This document shows, in pieces, positions 2,084 to 49,312 of a DNA stretch of 49,312 nt (positions within the stretch are counted from its first letter, which is position 1; each line of letters opens with the position of its first letter). Under the pieces are notes generated by a model that was not told where the DNA came from, ran no database searches, and saw only the letters and a program-made list of their open reading frames with translations. This stretch comes from a bacterium BRH_c32 (lineage in GTDB: Bacteria; Bacteroidota; Ignavibacteria; Ignavibacteriales; Melioribacteraceae): NCBI GenBank assembly GCA_001516025.1, contig LOEU01000031.1, forward strand, positions 1-49,312. Reading direction: 5' to 3'. The position numbers were made by a program, and so were the translations under genes.

Positions 2084-3466
2084 TTAATTAATTCGTTTAA
2101 CAAAATAAGCTGCAAGAGATTCTTTTTTCTTTACCGGATCGTAATCAGTATCCTCTGCAAATATAACCCGTTCACCTACTTTGAGCTGCGAGGCATTACC
2201 TTTATAACTGCTTGCTCTGAAGAATATCCGGCTATCATTAAATTCAATAAATCCAAACCTTTTCTCGGCGTTATAATCTTTGATAATTCCTTTATTTAAT
2301 TGAGAGTAAGCTAACTCATCTAATTTATTTTTCAACGTATTGACATTAAGATCATCAAGCGCAATATTATGTTTAGCTAATGATTGAGTCAATTTTTCTC
2401 TAAGTTTCCATTTTTCATTTATTCTTATTGCCGCGGCAAGCTTTAATGAAATAAGGGAGTATTCGTGATTTCCCAATTTTTCTAAAGTTTCATAAATGAG
2501 GTAAAAGAGTTCCCATTTGAATTTTAATTCTCCCGATCCTAAAGCAGCATCTAGTGCATATTTTAAGGAAGATTTATAATCCCCGATCAAAAAATAATTC
2601 TCCGCCAATTCTTTCTGAAGGAACCATACTTTTTTGAATTTCACGGATTTCAATAATCCCTCAATTGCTAAATTATATTCTTTCATTTGAGAGTAACATA
2701 GCGCAATTCTTCTAACGCACCATATATCATAATCACGATGATTCAGAATATTATCCGATAATAATTTTTGGGAAAACGAAAGACACTCGGCATAGTTACC
2801 CATCTCAAATAATATTTTGGATCTTTGAGCAAACCATGTTTCATAGTGCGAAGCCAATTCCTTTTGTCTTCCTTTAATAGTACCCATATAAGGTTCTTTA
2901 CTTAAATCCTCAGGATTAATAGAATCGATAATTTCAAGAGCATAGTCCCAATGAGTTTGAACGCTGACTATCAACTTGACGAAATTAAAACAGAGCTCTT
3001 TGACAGTAACATAATGGTATTTATCTTTTATATCCAATATTTGTAATAATAATTTCGTTTTGTTATAAAGAGAATCGATATCGCCGATTATGGCTTCGTC
3101 AATAAAATCTTCAGTTTCATTCGAACTATATTCTTCTTCACCGAAAGAGTTTTTGTTATTCTTTATTTTAAGATAATTGTATAGACATTTTCCATAAAGA
3201 TTTATTATAAAACTATTATTAATATTCCTTAAATCGATCTTAAGATAGTTATCAATAAAATTAATGCCCTTCTCGTACTTCTTGAGATTATAAAATGAAT
3301 TAAGAATGTCAGAAACCAAAAAATCATTCTCTGCTATTTGAGCTGAAGAAAATTTCTTATCTATATCCTTAATGAAAATATCAATTATTTCTGAAAATCT
3401 ATTTTCATTTGACACTTCTGCTTTCTTGTCCTTTATCTGAAACGATATTTCATTAAGAGTCGGCAT
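2084..3466 (-). CDS. TPR-like repeat protein with C-terminal cold-shock (CSD/OB-fold) domain
   Basis: About 460 residues. Most of the chain is helical with degenerate TPR-like pairs (for example LFEMGNYAECLSFSQKLL and CYSQMKEYNLAIEGLLKS). The last 70 residues form a cold-shock-type nucleic-acid-binding domain with RFGFIEF in the RNP1 position, RIFFRAS in the RNP2 position, and a G-E-R-V-x-F strand. An RNA- or ssDNA-linked scaffold role is inferred. The start at 3466 is chosen because AAGGAG lies seven bases upstream; a longer frame reaching 3595 would overlap the preceding zinc-ribbon gene by about 100 bases and lacks a ribosome site. It is co-oriented with a zinc-ribbon protein upstream and a small membrane protein downstream. 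Confidence 0.85.
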   Translation of the reverse strand: MPTLNEISFQIKDKKAEVSNENRFSEIIDIFIKDIDKKFSSAQIAENDFLVSDILNSFYNLKKYEKGINFIDNYLKIDLRNINNSFIINLYGKCLYNYLKIKNNKNSFGEEEYSSNETEDFIDEAIIGDIDSLYNKTKLLLQILDIKDKYHYVTVKELCFNFVKLIVSVQTHWDYALEIIDSINPEDLSKEPYMGTIKGRQKELASHYETWFAQRSKILFEMGNYAECLSFSQKLLSDNILNHRDYDIWCVRRIALCYSQMKEYNLAIEGLLKSVKFKKVWFLQKELAENYFLIGDYKSSLKYALDAALGSGELKFKWELFYLIYETLEKLGNHEYSLISLKLAAAIRINEKWKLREKLTQSLAKHNIALDDLNVNTLKNKLDELAYSQLNKGIIKDYNAEKRFGFIEFNDSRIFFRASSYKGNASQLKVGERVIFAEDTDYDPVKKKESLAAYFVKRIN

Positions 3467-4947: not shown

Positions 4948-4965
4948 CTAATTTAGGAGATTATT

Positions 4966-5568
4966 ATGACAGAAATTAAAATTGAAAAGAAAAAACTGGC
5001 GTGGCTATGGGTTTTATTAGGTATTATCGTAATTGCACTCCTTGTTTATTTTATGGTATTTTATAATTACGATGAGGGAATGAATGAAACTCACCAAACA
5101 TCTGAACTTATGGATAAGAATGATAAAGACCTCATAGGTGTAAATGAAAATAACAGCACCGTGGCGGCTTATATAAGTTTTGTGGAAAACAACAAAAATA
5201 AGATGAGTCTAGACCATGCATATACAAATGAAGCTCTTTTAAAATTAATCGAAGCTACAAATGCTATGGCAGGTGAAGTAGGATACGAGGTGCAGACTGA
5301 TTTAGAAAAGGTGAAGGGATATGCAGAAATGATTACAAAAGATCCGTTCGAGACTACACATGCGGATAATATTAGAAAGGCAGACGACCTTTTAACCAAT
5401 GCCTTGCAAAACATTCAGAAGGATAAATATCCGGGATTGACGAATGAAATTGCAGAATTGAGAAATGCTTCAGAATCAATTAAACCGGGAGTACTTACTC
5501 TTGATCAGAAAAATGAAGTTAAAAATTTCTTTAGCAAAGCAGCTGACCTGCTCCAAAAAATGAATTAA
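4966..5568 (+). CDS. Membrane-anchored helical protein of unknown function
   Basis: A 200-residue protein with a short basic N-terminus, one transmembrane segment at about residues 11-31 (WLWVLLGIIVIALLVYF), then a soluble helical extracytoplasmic domain with a hypothetical helical-bundle look. It is the middle gene of a three-gene operon and has a GGAG ribosome site. No catalytic motif is visible. Its location beside a lipoprotein and a PRC-barrel protein suggests an envelope role. Confidence 0.75.
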   Translation: MTEIKIEKKKLAWLWVLLGIIVIALLVYFMVFYNYDEGMNETHQTSELMDKNDKDLIGVNENNSTVAAYISFVENNKNKMSLDHAYTNEALLKLIEATNAMAGEVGYEVQTDLEKVKGYAEMITKDPFETTHADNIRKADDLLTNALQNIQKDKYPGLTNEIAELRNASESIKPGVLTLDQKNEVKNFFSKAADLLQKMN

Positions 5569-7706: not shown

Positions 7707-9061
7707 TAATACTCATCTTTACGAAGATCATATTTACTTATTTTATTATATAAAGTAGCTCTATCGATTCCCAAAACCTGTGCGGCTTTTGAAATATTCC
7801 AACTCGTTTCATTTAGTACTTTTTGAATATATTTTTTCTCCATTGCGGCAAGGCTATTATCGCCTTCATCCAATTCAAAAATATTCTTAGATACATGGAA
7901 CGGTAGATCATCCACTTCAATAGTATCTTTTTTCCCGACAACCATTGCCCTTTCTACTGCATTCTCCAATTCTCTTACGTTTCCCCTCCAATCATATTCC
8001 AATAAGAAATCCATCGCTTCTTTGGAAACTTTTTTCTTCTTCTTATTCATAACGGTAGAAAACTTGCCGATAAAGAAATCGACCAAGAGAGGGATATCAT
8101 TTTTTCTTTCGCGCAGTGGAGGAATAACAATTGTGAATACATTCAATCGGTAATAAAGGTCTTCTCTAAATTTGCCTTCTTTGACTAATTCTTCGAGCGG
8201 CTCATTTGTTGCAGTAATTATTCTGAAATCACTTTTAATTAAATCATTACCGCCCACTCTATTAAACTGTTTTGATTCAAGAACCCGCAATAATTCAATC
8301 TGCATTCTAAGGGAAATGGAGCCGATTTCATCTAAGAAGATCGTGCCTCCGTCTGCCATCTCGAACTTACCTTTACGTTTGAATTGAGCACCGGTGAACG
8401 ACCCTTTTTCATGACCGAATAATTCGCTCTCTAAAAGAGATTCGGCGAGTGCTCCGCAATTCACCGTAATAATCGGAGAATATTTTCTATTGCTATTGAT
8501 GTGAATTGCTTTCGCAATTAATTCTTTTCCCGTGCCGCTTTCCCCTCGAATCAAAACTGTTGTATCCGTCTTTGCAACCGAATGAACTAACTCATAAATT
8601 TTCTTCATCTGAAAACTTTCGCCGATCAGATTATCGGGCTTTATCACTTCATCAAGATTTTCTTTCAGGAGTGCGTTCTCGATTTTTAATGATTTTTGCT
8701 GAAGTGCGTTTTTGACAAGATGAGCAAGTTCATCGGGATCAACGGGTTTTGTAACGTAATCATAAGCGCCGTTTTTTAAGGCTGTAATGGCTGTGGGCAC
8801 CGAGGAATAAGCAGTGATTAATATTATGAGAGCATCTTTATCTATCGCTTTAATTTTTATCAGTAAATCCAATCCGCTCATTCCGGGCATTTTCATATCA
8901 ACTAGCAATAGATCAAATTCCCCTTCTGAATATTTCTTGAGTGCTATCTCTCCGTCTTCTGCGGTTTCGACATAATAGTTTTCTTCGTCAAACCAATGAT
9001 AAAGAGATTCTCTAACGATTTTTTCGTCATCAACAATTAATATTCTACTTTTCTTATTCAT
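7706..9061 (-). CDS. Sigma-54-dependent response regulator (NtrC/AtoC type)
   Basis: A 451-residue protein with three domains. The receiver is at 1-125 with acidic pair D11/D12, phosphoacceptor D55 and K105. The AAA+ domain is at about 145-375 with Walker A GESGTGKE at 173-180, a GSFTGA loop at 220-225 for sigma-54 contact, and FLDEIG as Walker B. The Fis-type helix-turn-helix is at the C-terminus (AAQVLGIDRATLYNKI). An AAGGA ribosome site precedes the ATG. It lies 12 bases after the histidine kinase gene and is its cognate partner. A sigma-54 promoter and two dyads upstream of 14752 are its likely targets, so it should activate its own operon. Confidence 0.96.
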   Translation of the reverse strand: MNKKSRILIVDDEKIVRESLYHWFDEENYYVETAEDGEIALKKYSEGEFDLLLVDMKMPGMSGLDLLIKIKAIDKDALIILITAYSSVPTAITALKNGAYDYVTKPVDPDELAHLVKNALQQKSLKIENALLKENLDEVIKPDNLIGESFQMKKIYELVHSVAKTDTTVLIRGESGTGKELIAKAIHINSNRKYSPIITVNCGALAESLLESELFGHEKGSFTGAQFKRKGKFEMADGGTIFLDEIGSISLRMQIELLRVLESKQFNRVGGNDLIKSDFRIITATNEPLEELVKEGKFREDLYYRLNVFTIVIPPLRERKNDIPLLVDFFIGKFSTVMNKKKKKVSKEAMDFLLEYDWRGNVRELENAVERAMVVGKKDTIEVDDLPFHVSKNIFELDEGDNSLAAMEKKYIQKVLNETSWNISKAAQVLGIDRATLYNKISKYDLRKDEY

Positions 9062-46575: not shown

Positions 46576-47610
46576 TTAAAAATATCCTTCGGCATGCATA
46601 AGTTCGGCAATTAAAATAGTTCCGCCCACTGCTCCGCGGATCGTATTATGAGATAGAATTACGAACTTATAATCGAATAAAGAGCATTCTCGTAAGCGTC
46701 CGATAGCCACTCCCATTCCCCTCTCCAGATTGCGATGAATTTTTGCCTGTGGATATTTATCTTCTTCATAATAATGGATAGGGCTGATCGGAGCAGAAGG
46801 AAGATTTAATTCCTGCGGCTTAGACCTAAACTCTCGCCACACTTTTTTAATCTCTTCAATAGTTGGCTTAGTCTTGAGCTTAACTTGAACACATTCTGTA
46901 TGTCCATCAATCACGGGGACACGATTGCATTGAGCCGAGATTCTGAAATCAGCAAGTTCGATTCGATCATTATTAAATTTCCCAAGAATCTTCGCTGGCT
47001 CTGTTTCTAATTTTTCCTCCTCACCGAAGATAAATGGAACAACATTATCAAGAATATCCATCGAAGAGATACCGGGATAACCGGCGCCTGAAACCGCCTG
47101 CATCGTTACAACATTCACCGACTCTAATCCGAAATTATCATGCAGGGGTTTTAGTGACATCGCAAGTCCGATCGTTGAACAGTTGGGATTTGTAACTATT
47201 CCTCCTTTATATTTTTGTGAGCGAAGCAGCGATAAATGATCATAATTAATTTCGGGAATAAGAAGAGGGACATCCGGATCGAAACGATGATTACGTGCAT
47301 TAGAAATAATAAAATAACCCGCTTCGGCGAATTGAGTTTCTATCTCCCCCGCCACCGAAGCATCTAATCCCGAAAAAATAATTTTTGAATGAAAATCCGG
47401 GACGCATTCTTTTACAATTAGATTACCGATGTTTTCGGGCAATGGAGTTTGCATAATCCAATTAACTGCATTGGAATATTTTTTACCTGCTGATTTTTCG
47501 GAGGCACCTAGTTCAGCCAATTCAAAATAGGGATGACTTGATAATAGCTCAATGAAACGCTGCCCCACGCTTCCTGTGGCACCAAGTATTCCCACCGATA
47601 TTTTTTTCAT
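46576..47610 (-). CDS. asd: Aspartate-semialdehyde dehydrogenase (archaeal/fungal-type length)
   Basis: A 344-residue dehydrogenase: Rossmann start GATGSVGQRF at about 10-19, catalytic Cys144 in NPNCSTIG, and the RVPVIDGHTECV motif. It reduces aspartyl phosphate to the semialdehyde. It lies 18 bases downstream of lysC and has a GAGGAG ribosome site. Confidence 0.95.
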   Translation of the reverse strand: MKKISVGILGATGSVGQRFIELLSSHPYFELAELGASEKSAGKKYSNAVNWIMQTPLPENIGNLIVKECVPDFHSKIIFSGLDASVAGEIETQFAEAGYFIISNARNHRFDPDVPLLIPEINYDHLSLLRSQKYKGGIVTNPNCSTIGLAMSLKPLHDNFGLESVNVVTMQAVSGAGYPGISSMDILDNVVPFIFGEEEKLETEPAKILGKFNNDRIELADFRISAQCNRVPVIDGHTECVQVKLKTKPTIEEIKKVWREFRSKPQELNLPSAPISPIHYYEEDKYPQAKIHRNLERGMGVAIGRLRECSLFDYKFVILSHNTIRGAVGGTILIAELMHAEGYF

Positions 47611-47628
47611 ACACTCCTCATTATAAGA

Positions 47629-49056
47629 TTACTGTCTTTTTAAGATTTTTGAATGTATTGCGTTGAGTGCTTTCGATAGATCATCTTTATTTATCACCAA
47701 AGATATATTTAATTCGGACGACCCCTGCGCAATCGCATTAATATTGATTGCGTTATCACCGAGAGCCATAAAAATTTTCCCTGCAATACCCGGAGAATGC
47801 CTCATCTTCTCTCCTACAACCGCGATAATCGAAAGATTATCTTCTACCGAAATCTCACCGATTATCTTATCGAGAAGTTCTAGTCGAAATTCATTCTTAA
47901 GTATTGCTTTACTTTTTTCACCATGTTCGGGCAGTACGGCGAGACAGATGCTATGCTCCGATGAAGCTTGTGTGATAAGTATAATGTTAATTTTATGCAA
48001 TGCCAGTGCGGTGAATAAGCGTGATGCTATTCCCGAGACTCCGATCATGCCGCTCCCCTGCACACGGATAAGAGAGACATTATCGATCGAAGAAATCCCC
48101 TTAATAAAAAATTCCTCTGAATCATTTGATATATCACTTGCCGAATCAGTGGTTTGCTCTCGACTTTTCTCGACAATCGTTGTACCCGCTGCCTCAGGAT
48201 TGAAAGTATTCTTAATAATTATTTTAATTTTCTTATCGAGTGCGGGCAGCATCGTAGGAGGATATATTACCTTCGCCCCGAAATGCGAAAGCTCCATCGC
48301 CTCTTCATAAGTAACCGATTTAAGAGAGAATGCATCGGCTACTTTTCTCGGATCGGCGGTTAAGATACCATCGACATCCGTCCATATTTCGATAGCATCG
48401 GCATCGATAGACGCACCGATTATTGCAGCGGTATAGTCCGATCCGCCTCTTCCCAAAGTTGTAATTTCGTTTTCTTCGGTCGATGAAATAAATCCGGTTA
48501 CTATCTGAATCATTTTATGCTTCTTAAAATATGCTTTGATATTTCTGTTAGTCAATTTGAAATTTACACGAGCTTTACCGAAATCGTTATCGGTTTTTAT
48601 GATTTGCGAGGCATTAAGATATTCGCAATCAATTCCTCGATTGATCATCGATTCGGTTATAATAGTGCAAGATAGCCTTTCGCCAAAGCTGACAATATAA
48701 TCGAGCGATTTTGCAGTGAGCTCTTTTACTAAAAAAACTCCATGAAGAATTTCCGAAAGTTCATCGAATAATGATTCGGCTTTATATTGCAATATGCTAA
48801 TATCGCGTCCATAATTGAGCTCGTTAATTGCTTCAAAGTGGAGCTGCGTTAATGTCTTCAGTTTCGATTTATAAGCTGCATTACGTTTGAGTGCTAGATT
48901 TCCGATATCTATAAGGCTATCAGTTACGGATTGAAATGCAGAGAATACGACAGATATATTTTCATTATTCTCAATTCTTGTTTGGAGAATGGAGATCACG
49001 GAATTAATTCTCTCGGCATTAGCTACGCTCGATCCGCCGAATTTCATTACGATCAT
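47629..49056 (-). CDS. lysC: Aspartate kinase
   Basis: A 475-residue monofunctional aspartokinase: KFGGSSVA at 5-12, the FGERLSCTI and TLGRGGSDYTA nucleotide-binding motifs, and two C-terminal ACT domains (about 320-475, with SIDNVSLIRVQGSGMIGV) that usually mediate feedback inhibition by threonine or lysine. AAGGA lies six bases before the ATG. Its upstream region is the decamer array. No homoserine dehydrogenase is fused or adjacent. Confidence 0.96.
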   Translation of the reverse strand: MIVMKFGGSSVANAERINSVISILQTRIENNENISVVFSAFQSVTDSLIDIGNLALKRNAAYKSKLKTLTQLHFEAINELNYGRDISILQYKAESLFDELSEILHGVFLVKELTAKSLDYIVSFGERLSCTIITESMINRGIDCEYLNASQIIKTDNDFGKARVNFKLTNRNIKAYFKKHKMIQIVTGFISSTEENEITTLGRGGSDYTAAIIGASIDADAIEIWTDVDGILTADPRKVADAFSLKSVTYEEAMELSHFGAKVIYPPTMLPALDKKIKIIIKNTFNPEAAGTTIVEKSREQTTDSASDISNDSEEFFIKGISSIDNVSLIRVQGSGMIGVSGIASRLFTALALHKINIILITQASSEHSICLAVLPEHGEKSKAILKNEFRLELLDKIIGEISVEDNLSIIAVVGEKMRHSPGIAGKIFMALGDNAININAIAQGSSELNISLVINKDDLSKALNAIHSKILKRQ

Positions 49057-49110
49057 AAAGAATCCTTATACGTTGTAATTGAAAAGCCAATATGAAACAA
49101 AAAACAGAAA

Positions 49111-49312
49111 TAGGCAAGAAAGTGCGAGCGGGTGCAGATGTGTGCCAATTAGTGCGACGACGGACGAGTGGGGGAAGGCGAGTGCCGGAAAGTGCGATTG
49201 GGTATAATCCGGTGCAGATAAGTGCAGCCGAAAGCAAGCGGGTGCAACAGTGAGCAATTCCGTGCAACCCTGAGCAGGTGAGTGCAGTTGTGAGCAGGTC
49301 GGTGCAGCCCGG
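49111..49312. repeat. In-register degenerate 10-bp repeat array
   Basis: At least 20 consecutive units of exactly 10 bp, with no insertion or deletion, from about 49111 to the window edge. Over the 19 complete units 49121-49310, position 2 is G in 18, position 3 is T in 13 and A in 4, position 4 is G in 17, position 5 is C in 17, position 6 is A in 13, and position 7 is purine in all 19; positions 1 and 8-10 vary freely. Units include AGTGCAGCCG, TGAGCAGGTG and GGTGCAGATA. From 49241 to 49305 GTGC and GAGC cores alternate, giving a 20-bp superperiod. The array is richer in G and C than its surroundings. It lies directly upstream of lysC, but nothing links it to lysC function. Confidence 0.85.

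Follow-up and report, generated by a model that had tools for sequence, protein, structure and literature searches.

Intergenic arrays of a degenerate 10-bp unit in a Melioribacteraceae genome: a putative lattice of spaced binding sites

Introduction

What keeps a short core and an exact 10-bp step constant in a stretch of DNA whose remaining letters are almost free? The question is raised by one end of a contig of 49,312 nucleotides from bacterium BRH_c32 (Bacteroidota, Ignavibacteriales, Melioribacteraceae). The window is this entire contig (LOEU01000031.1, here C31); the source genome comprises 43 contigs and 3.49 Mb. A first-pass annotation, made from the letters alone, had pointed to an indel-free run of twenty or more units with a conserved NGWGCAR core, and had suggested either selection for a spaced binding site or an unusual generating mechanism.

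Short intergenic arrays, as far as the reports compared below describe them, repeat the whole unit, whereas here constancy is confined to the step and to seven positions out of ten. With about 180 units at four places that have little other sequence in common, what has been copied becomes separable from what is constrained, and whether such genome-specific arrays are selected or merely copied can be tested by comparing the change in core and spacer between strains. If the arrays are read by a protein, they would be a chromosome-bound lattice of a new type; if they are not, they would show how far copying alone can mimic a binding site. Arrays that are likely kept as protein-read sites would constitute a little-known chromosome element.

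Position of the array and its surroundings

The array, named J, occupies positions 49111..49312 of the plus strand and is built of RGTGCRRNNN units, as delimited by segmentation, periodicity and an overlap between contigs. Segmentation yields 20 units inside the window, with every step equal to 10 bp, in agreement with the earlier count. The last 38 bases of the window (49275..49312, plus strand) are identical to C1:1-38 (100% identity over query positions 165-202, E 6.9e-13), and the start of contig C1 is their sole exact match among the matches listed. This single 38-bp overlap suggests that C31 and C1 adjoin within J. What is likely the same array extends to C1:406, giving about 57 units in total, so that the expected continuation beyond the window was found. 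An assembly artefact or chimera might be suspected from the location of J at a contig end, since repeats break assemblies; the overlap of the two contig ends, and arrays lying deep in C1 (23.4-25.6 kb) and C36 (54.6 kb) between intact neighbours, leave this explanation with a probability close to nil.

On the window side, the first gene beyond J is lysC (47629..49056, minus strand), an ORF for an aspartate kinase with ACT domains (Pfam AA_kinase and ACT_9) whose 5' end is directed towards J. The two are separated by about 55 bp (49057..49110, minus strand), which presumably contain the lysC 5' region. This gene appears to head a minus-strand lysC-asd-thrB-thrC operon, in which lysC was assigned by Pfam and the other three genes were named by eye. 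On the C1 side, a hairpin with a T-run, also recognised by eye, lies on the opposite strand directly past J (C1:407-432), and the stop codon at C1:475 belongs to a gene whose product carries CBM9 and type IX secretion-tail domains. J is antisense to both flanking genes, and one of its strands is rich in G (.38, vs.19 for C).

No Rfam family matched positions 47000-49312 at E values up to 1, and RNA folding of the window part of J gave nothing beyond shuffled sequences. A coding role was rejected: several reading frames of the pyrimidine-rich strand are open, as its composition predicts, and a 10-bp period shifts the frame at each unit. Tandem Repeats Finder called only 49271-49299 in this region.

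Further arrays in the same genome

The first-pass annotation had named the absence of further arrays as an argument against its own reading. A pattern search of the genome returned three more, of 12-88 units and all intergenic, which brings the number to four and the units to about 180; the control, consisting of the pattern read backwards, gave no match in this genome. Two of them have their G-rich strand on minus and lie on C1, namely A24 (~23.43-24.31 kb) and A25 (~25.28-25.57 kb). The third, A36 (C36 ~54.61-54.73 kb), has 12 units and fills the gap between convergent CN_hydrolase- and ArsC-family genes. A24 and A25 are separated by a minus-strand gene (C1:24570-25199; L040 12570-13199) which encodes a nucleotidyltransferase domain and a MarR-like domain just below the Pfam cut-off, as though it had been inserted into one array; A24 and A25 may be pieces of a single array. 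The Pfam matches of seven neighbouring proteins show no gene common to the arrays and no candidate binder.

When 521 kb of the genome were scanned for autocorrelation at periods of 5-60 bp, J, A24 and A25 stood out, each at multiples of 10, and A36 went undetected. The scan gave one other equally strong signal, of period 45 (L353), and five weaker ones, apparently within genes. Separately, a prophage-like region of C19, recognised by eye (L090, C19:20000-34000), holds runs of four and three units with 10-bp steps at ~4951-4985 and ~8979-9003, one of which sits between a repressor-like gene and the genes that follow it. These runs could be operator-like sites or chance. A short run on C4 was dismissed, as it lies within a coding T9SS-type tail.

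A conserved core, a nearly free spacer and a fixed step

Among 167 pooled units, positions 1-7 are R.86, G.78, T.79, G.86, C.92, R.82 and R.96. The GTGC positions are individually conserved in 78-92% of the units and carry 0.99-1.48 bit each, and positions 8-10 are nearly free, with 0.04-0.17 bit. The division into core and free positions proposed earlier therefore stands, although RGTGCRR followed by a nearly free 3-base spacer is a better description than NGWGCAR, and the pooled units, like those of the window, combine a constant core with a free spacer and a constant length. Only two irregular steps, of 11 and 9 bp, occur among the 167 units; both are in A24, at a distance of about 70 bp from each other. 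Exact GTGC is present in 12 of the 20 window units (counted by eye), and several of these units are poor, such as 49161-49180 and 49201.

The periodicity itself is well above expectation. Lag-10 identity of 49111-49312 is 0.51, vs 0.28 (sd 0.03) after shuffling (z 7.5), and the highest value in 20,000 mononucleotide shuffles was 0.41. When 202-base windows were taken across the contig, the top four all overlapped the array end (0.43-0.50), followed by 0.39. Free positions have a GC content of.30-.32 in A24, A25 and A36, near that of a genome sample (.35), and of.55 in J; a core that stays fixed while the free positions approach genomic GC in three arrays argues for a spaced binding lattice. 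In A24, 79 of 86 units are distinct.

The earlier idea that all cores face the same side of the helix is only weakly borne out. B-DNA has about 10.5 bp per turn, and an exact step of 10.0 bp drifts over 57-88 units. Predicted curvature is average, J, A24 and A25 falling at the 35th-44th percentile of genome windows (wedge model), and phased curved DNA was discarded as an explanation for these three arrays. They also hold no G4 motif, defined as four G-tracts of three or more.

Relatives, phylum and viruses

Relatives of lysC were found in 22 of 28 genomes of the family, the present one included. One of 26 other lysC-upstream loci had no usable motif, and no array was seen in the remaining 25, some of which have short upstream DNA. 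What precedes lysC in four of the 22 scanned loci (L382, L383, L384 and L389) is a threonine-rich, leader-like small ORF, whose stop lies 64-82 bp ahead of the KFGG motif near the lysC start. None of these four loci matched Rfam, and from its sequence the ORF is perhaps a threonine attenuator. In L396, what looked like a 10-bp period upstream of lysC proved to be a run of N.

The array could be a remnant of such a leader, as it holds the same position and the leader-like ORF of L383 contains a GTGCACGTG stretch. No threonine-rich ORF was found in the own locus, where the array takes this place (49057-49312) instead; three more arrays with this motif are situated next to other genes, and 10 bp is not a multiple of the codon. 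Such an origin is very improbable.

The own genome has four arrays, and a pattern search of 38 genomes including it found none in the 37 relatives, where G024 gave one single match. Nor were any found in the 394 other genomes of the phylum (395 with the own one, overlapping in part with the 38), two of which gave one single match each. Both patterns are strict, and the one used on the 38 genomes misses the own A36, so that equally degenerate short arrays escape detection. Inspection of 307 kb from twenty relatives, in which two stretches are N and one partly so, revealed nothing of this kind. One relative, G006 (L361), holds arrays of period 21 and period 6 at ~12451 and ~6661.

In viral contigs, four consecutive RGTGCRRNNN units were matched by 28 stretches, 18 of them plain repeats (neighbour spacer identity of 0.75 or more). 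The reversed pattern matched 28 stretches and a scrambled one 22, which indicates no viral enrichment. A blastn search of the array against phages and plasmids gave no match. Scanning genome contigs for the core returned at least 116 stretches, many of them from GC-rich genomes; the 80 loci examined among these were mostly 5- or 10-bp repeats with similar spacers. Only one genome, the Acidobacteria MAG SJ725, had many loci among the matches listed.

Decamer arrays in Acidobacteria

A five-unit pattern matched SJ725 426 times, and its control not once. The unit is GGTGCG[AG][AG]C[AG], with 201 of 204 steps equal to 10 bp in the 19 arrays above threshold; a lower threshold yields at least 31 arrays in 23 loci. 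When 58 relatives of SJ725 were searched with the pattern, G418 gave 16 matches, G417 one and the other 56 none. G418 has ten arrays in ten regions, with 58 units and no irregular step. The core shared with SJ725 may be a coincidence, because the search was made with that core.

Synteny with SJ725 was found for three G418 regions, which provide five comparable array sites. Both species carry an array at two of them, L324/L416 (at the same TAG stop) and L327/L420. SJ725 alone has one at a second site in L324 and in L328, and G418 alone in L419; L328 and L419 are different sites. In nine units of the shared arrays, differences fall on 4 of 54 letters at positions 1-6 and on 16 of 36 at positions 7-10 (Fisher p 6e-5); the first pair (L324/L416) was compared only as far as a one-base gap. 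This contrast between core and spacer counts in favour of a lattice, but could reflect a reshuffling of unit types with an invariant core. Both the absence of an array from one species at three of five sites and the gap in one shared array speak against a maintained lattice.

SJ725 also carries arrays of other periods (L317-L335, L096, L101, L121), namely 7 (GGGATCA), 8 (AGAACCCN), 9 (CGCAGATGR) and 15 (GTGCTTCGAACCCCC), which shows that degenerate arrays can dispense with a helical period. Of five motifs known from other intergenic arrays, two were found among the loci examined, and these occur in SJ725 loci only. A G4 motif is present in 21 of the 41 SJ725 and G418 arrays. In the L324 region of SJ725, the segment 2985-3809 between two opposite arrays aligns (75%) inverted relative to its flanks in G418 (L416 3062-3883), as if the inverted arrays had served an inversion.

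Gene calls, which are crude here, put a sense-oriented stop codon near the beginning of 24 of the 41 arrays, which start between -45 and +75 bp of it. Seventeen are near a sense stop only, 5 near an antisense stop only (p.017), 7 near both and 12 near neither, and several begin right at the stop codon (TAGGTGCGG). In L328 (~2823-3070), the gene end with its stop, GGTGACACCC, reappears among the array units as GGTGACACAC; it looks as though the gene's terminal sequence had been copied into the array.

The sense orientation of these 24 arrays is one of several features that would suit an element of transcription, either a series of regularly spaced sites at which RNA polymerase pauses or, on the pyrimidine-rich strand, an extended region for Rho loading. 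The pause logo, as given in the available text of the reports on it, has G at -10, a pyrimidine at -1 and G at +1, that is, two G 10 nt apart (PMC10268239, PMC5423485). The 10-bp period matches the spacing of -10 and +1, C would stand at -1 in 92% of the units and a purine at +1 in 82%, and the G/C skew of J is of the required kind. Positions +1 and -10 hold G in only 26% of own-genome units, however, J is antisense to both neighbours, the hairpin and T-run at C1:407-432 already seem to form the terminator of the upstream gene, and the window part of J shows no fold beyond shuffles. The logo (PMC10268239, PMC5423485) fits SJ725 better than the own genome; as an account of the arrays as a whole, a role in pausing or Rho loading is possible but improbable.

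Growth of the arrays

Sharing of 12-, 14- and 17-mers between different arrays of the own genome does not exceed what the motif predicts, with A24-A25 as a borderline pair, in which 11 of 200 simulations reached the observed sharing at k 14 and 9 of 200 at k 17. The idea that the four arrays were copied from one another was set aside, as nothing clear remained beyond the motif. Within arrays, spacer identity at lag 1 is.21-.28 in the four longer segments, vs.28-.32 in shuffled order, and.39 vs.37 in A36; in A24, neighbouring spacers are less alike than in random order. Since neighbouring spacers are unlike, recent unit-by-unit slippage does not explain the common core. Spacers are alike at lag 4 in J (p.05) and A25 (p.008) and at lag 5 in A36 (p.015), all uncorrected.

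Copying has nevertheless occurred at a larger scale. J contains two in-register duplications, a block of 20 units at lag 24 and one of 6 units at lag 39; A24 has a block of 8 units at lag 13, and A25 one of 8 units at lag 7, all lags being counted in units. The copies are 85-91% identical; the search considered only in-register blocks of at least 5 units, a restriction that conceals indels. Together with the unlike neighbours, these blocks make recent growth look like block copying rather than single-unit copying. Among 42 unit pairs of the duplicated blocks, differences affect 15 of 168 core letters, 13 of 126 purine sites and 19 of 126 free sites. The core is not significantly slower than the free sites (Fisher p 0.14), and these counts suit weak selection and no selection alike.

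The step is the other quantity that may be constrained. If about 300 substitutions are assumed, with indel ratios from.03 to.09, 9-27 irregular steps would be expected and 2 are seen (P.006 to 7e-10 across these ratios). With 118 assumed substitutions, P runs from.31 to.002 and is not significant at the lowest ratio.

These observations bear on a rival account in which the arrays are a functionless or selfish intergenic repeat, a block-duplicated decamer bound by no protein whose core stays constant only as the pairing region of the copying. In its favour are the in-register blocks of 6-20 units (lags 7, 13, 24 and 39) in three arrays, the failure to find an array elsewhere in the phylum, the three of five Acidobacteria sites occupied in one species only, a gene end recurring as array units in SJ725 and arrays of quite different unit and period in that genome. 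It accounts less easily for the small trace of single-unit copying between unlike neighbours and, under the assumed ratios, for the scarcity of irregular steps; copying of big blocks carries broken cores along and could hardly preserve a core. Because the presence of arrays varies from one species to another, and because recent copies show no clear slowing of change in the core, copying alone is nearly as likely as a binding lattice.

A putative lattice of spaced binding sites

The binding lattice is put forward as the tentatively preferred reading, held at somewhat less than even probability: the arrays would be a spaced lattice of RGTGCRR sites kept for a putative DNA-binding protein and grown by block duplication. 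The protein would line up on the array with one subunit per 10 bp and would read duplex DNA, not RNA, because J is antisense to both neighbours and A36 lies between convergent genes. Selection would remove insertions and deletions, in-place copying of whole-unit blocks would lengthen the arrays while preserving the register, and the free letters would drift to the base composition of the genome. Binding, duplex reading and selection against indels are all inferred from the arrays themselves. Candidate roles for the lattice include gene insulation, nucleoid organisation and regulation of the lysC operon.

Selection for a spaced site, as first proposed, is favoured only moderately: the additional arrays speak for it, and the lack of arrays in relatives and the core/free comparison in duplicated blocks speak against it. 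A broader version, in which the decamer lattice would be a new class of intergenic chromosomal element, read by a protein polymer that takes up one RGTGCRR site for each 10 bp exactly along as much as 0.9 kb, having arisen separately with the same core in at least two phyla and being anchored at gene ends, is unlikely.

Comparison with known systems

A search of titles and abstracts found no publication on decamer arrays with a free spacer, although one may still be in print. Some familiar classes can be set apart from the present arrays. Plasmid centromeres of the ParR/parC type consist of short iterons, with one site per plasmid beside parM/parR. They resemble the present arrays in having short direct repeats at a constant step, those of parC being read by a protein that lines up along the DNA; a centromere of this type was rejected in view of four loci with unrelated neighbours, the seven neighbouring proteins matching other Pfam families. 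CRISPR arrays have repeats of over 20 bp and spacers of about 30 bp, and are ruled out by units of 7+3 bp. An ordinary tandem repeat, or minisatellite, was likewise rejected, as similarity over the whole unit is absent, positions 8-10 being near-free and neighbouring spacers unlike; signs of unit copying, as in minisatellites, do exist in the form of the in-register blocks at lags of 7, 13, 24 and 39 units.

The decamers of SJ725 and G418 share the core, the 10-bp step, the occurrence at many loci and, where gene calls permit a judgement, a mostly intergenic position. They differ in belonging to another phylum, in their shorter arrays and in a spacer that is not free, positions 7, 8 and 10 being mainly A/G and position 9 being C.

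Heptamer arrays offer the other comparison. GGGNATC arrays are described, in the available text of the report, from Xanthomonas and Nostoc, with G-tracts that form quadruplexes (PMC4692102). According to that text (PMC4692102), they are similarly intergenic, G-rich on one strand and located near ORF ends. Of the 41 SJ725 and G418 arrays, 24 likewise begin near a stop codon in sense orientation. GGGNATC arrays differ in their 7-bp unit and in the quadruplex-forming tracts, J, A24 and A25 having no G4 motif. Direct repeats of the heptamer TAACTGA are intergenic in Beggiatoaceae, Cyanobacteria and some Bacteroidetes (PMC4679880). As far as the available text goes, these arrays are likewise genome-specific, present at several intergenic loci and of unproven function; in the Bacteroidetes cases close relatives lack them at the corresponding locus, and in some strains the repeats coincide with contig ends (PMC4679880). 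The own genome presents the same picture, with four intergenic arrays and none in the 37 relatives, where degenerate ones could be missed. The TAACTGA unit is an exact 7 bp without a spacer (PMC4679880), as opposed to a 10-bp step with a free 3-bp spacer here, and the own arrays stand apart from both heptamer types because in the heptamers the whole unit is repeated. The closest known kind is that of genome-specific intergenic repeat arrays such as TAACTGA and GGGNATC.
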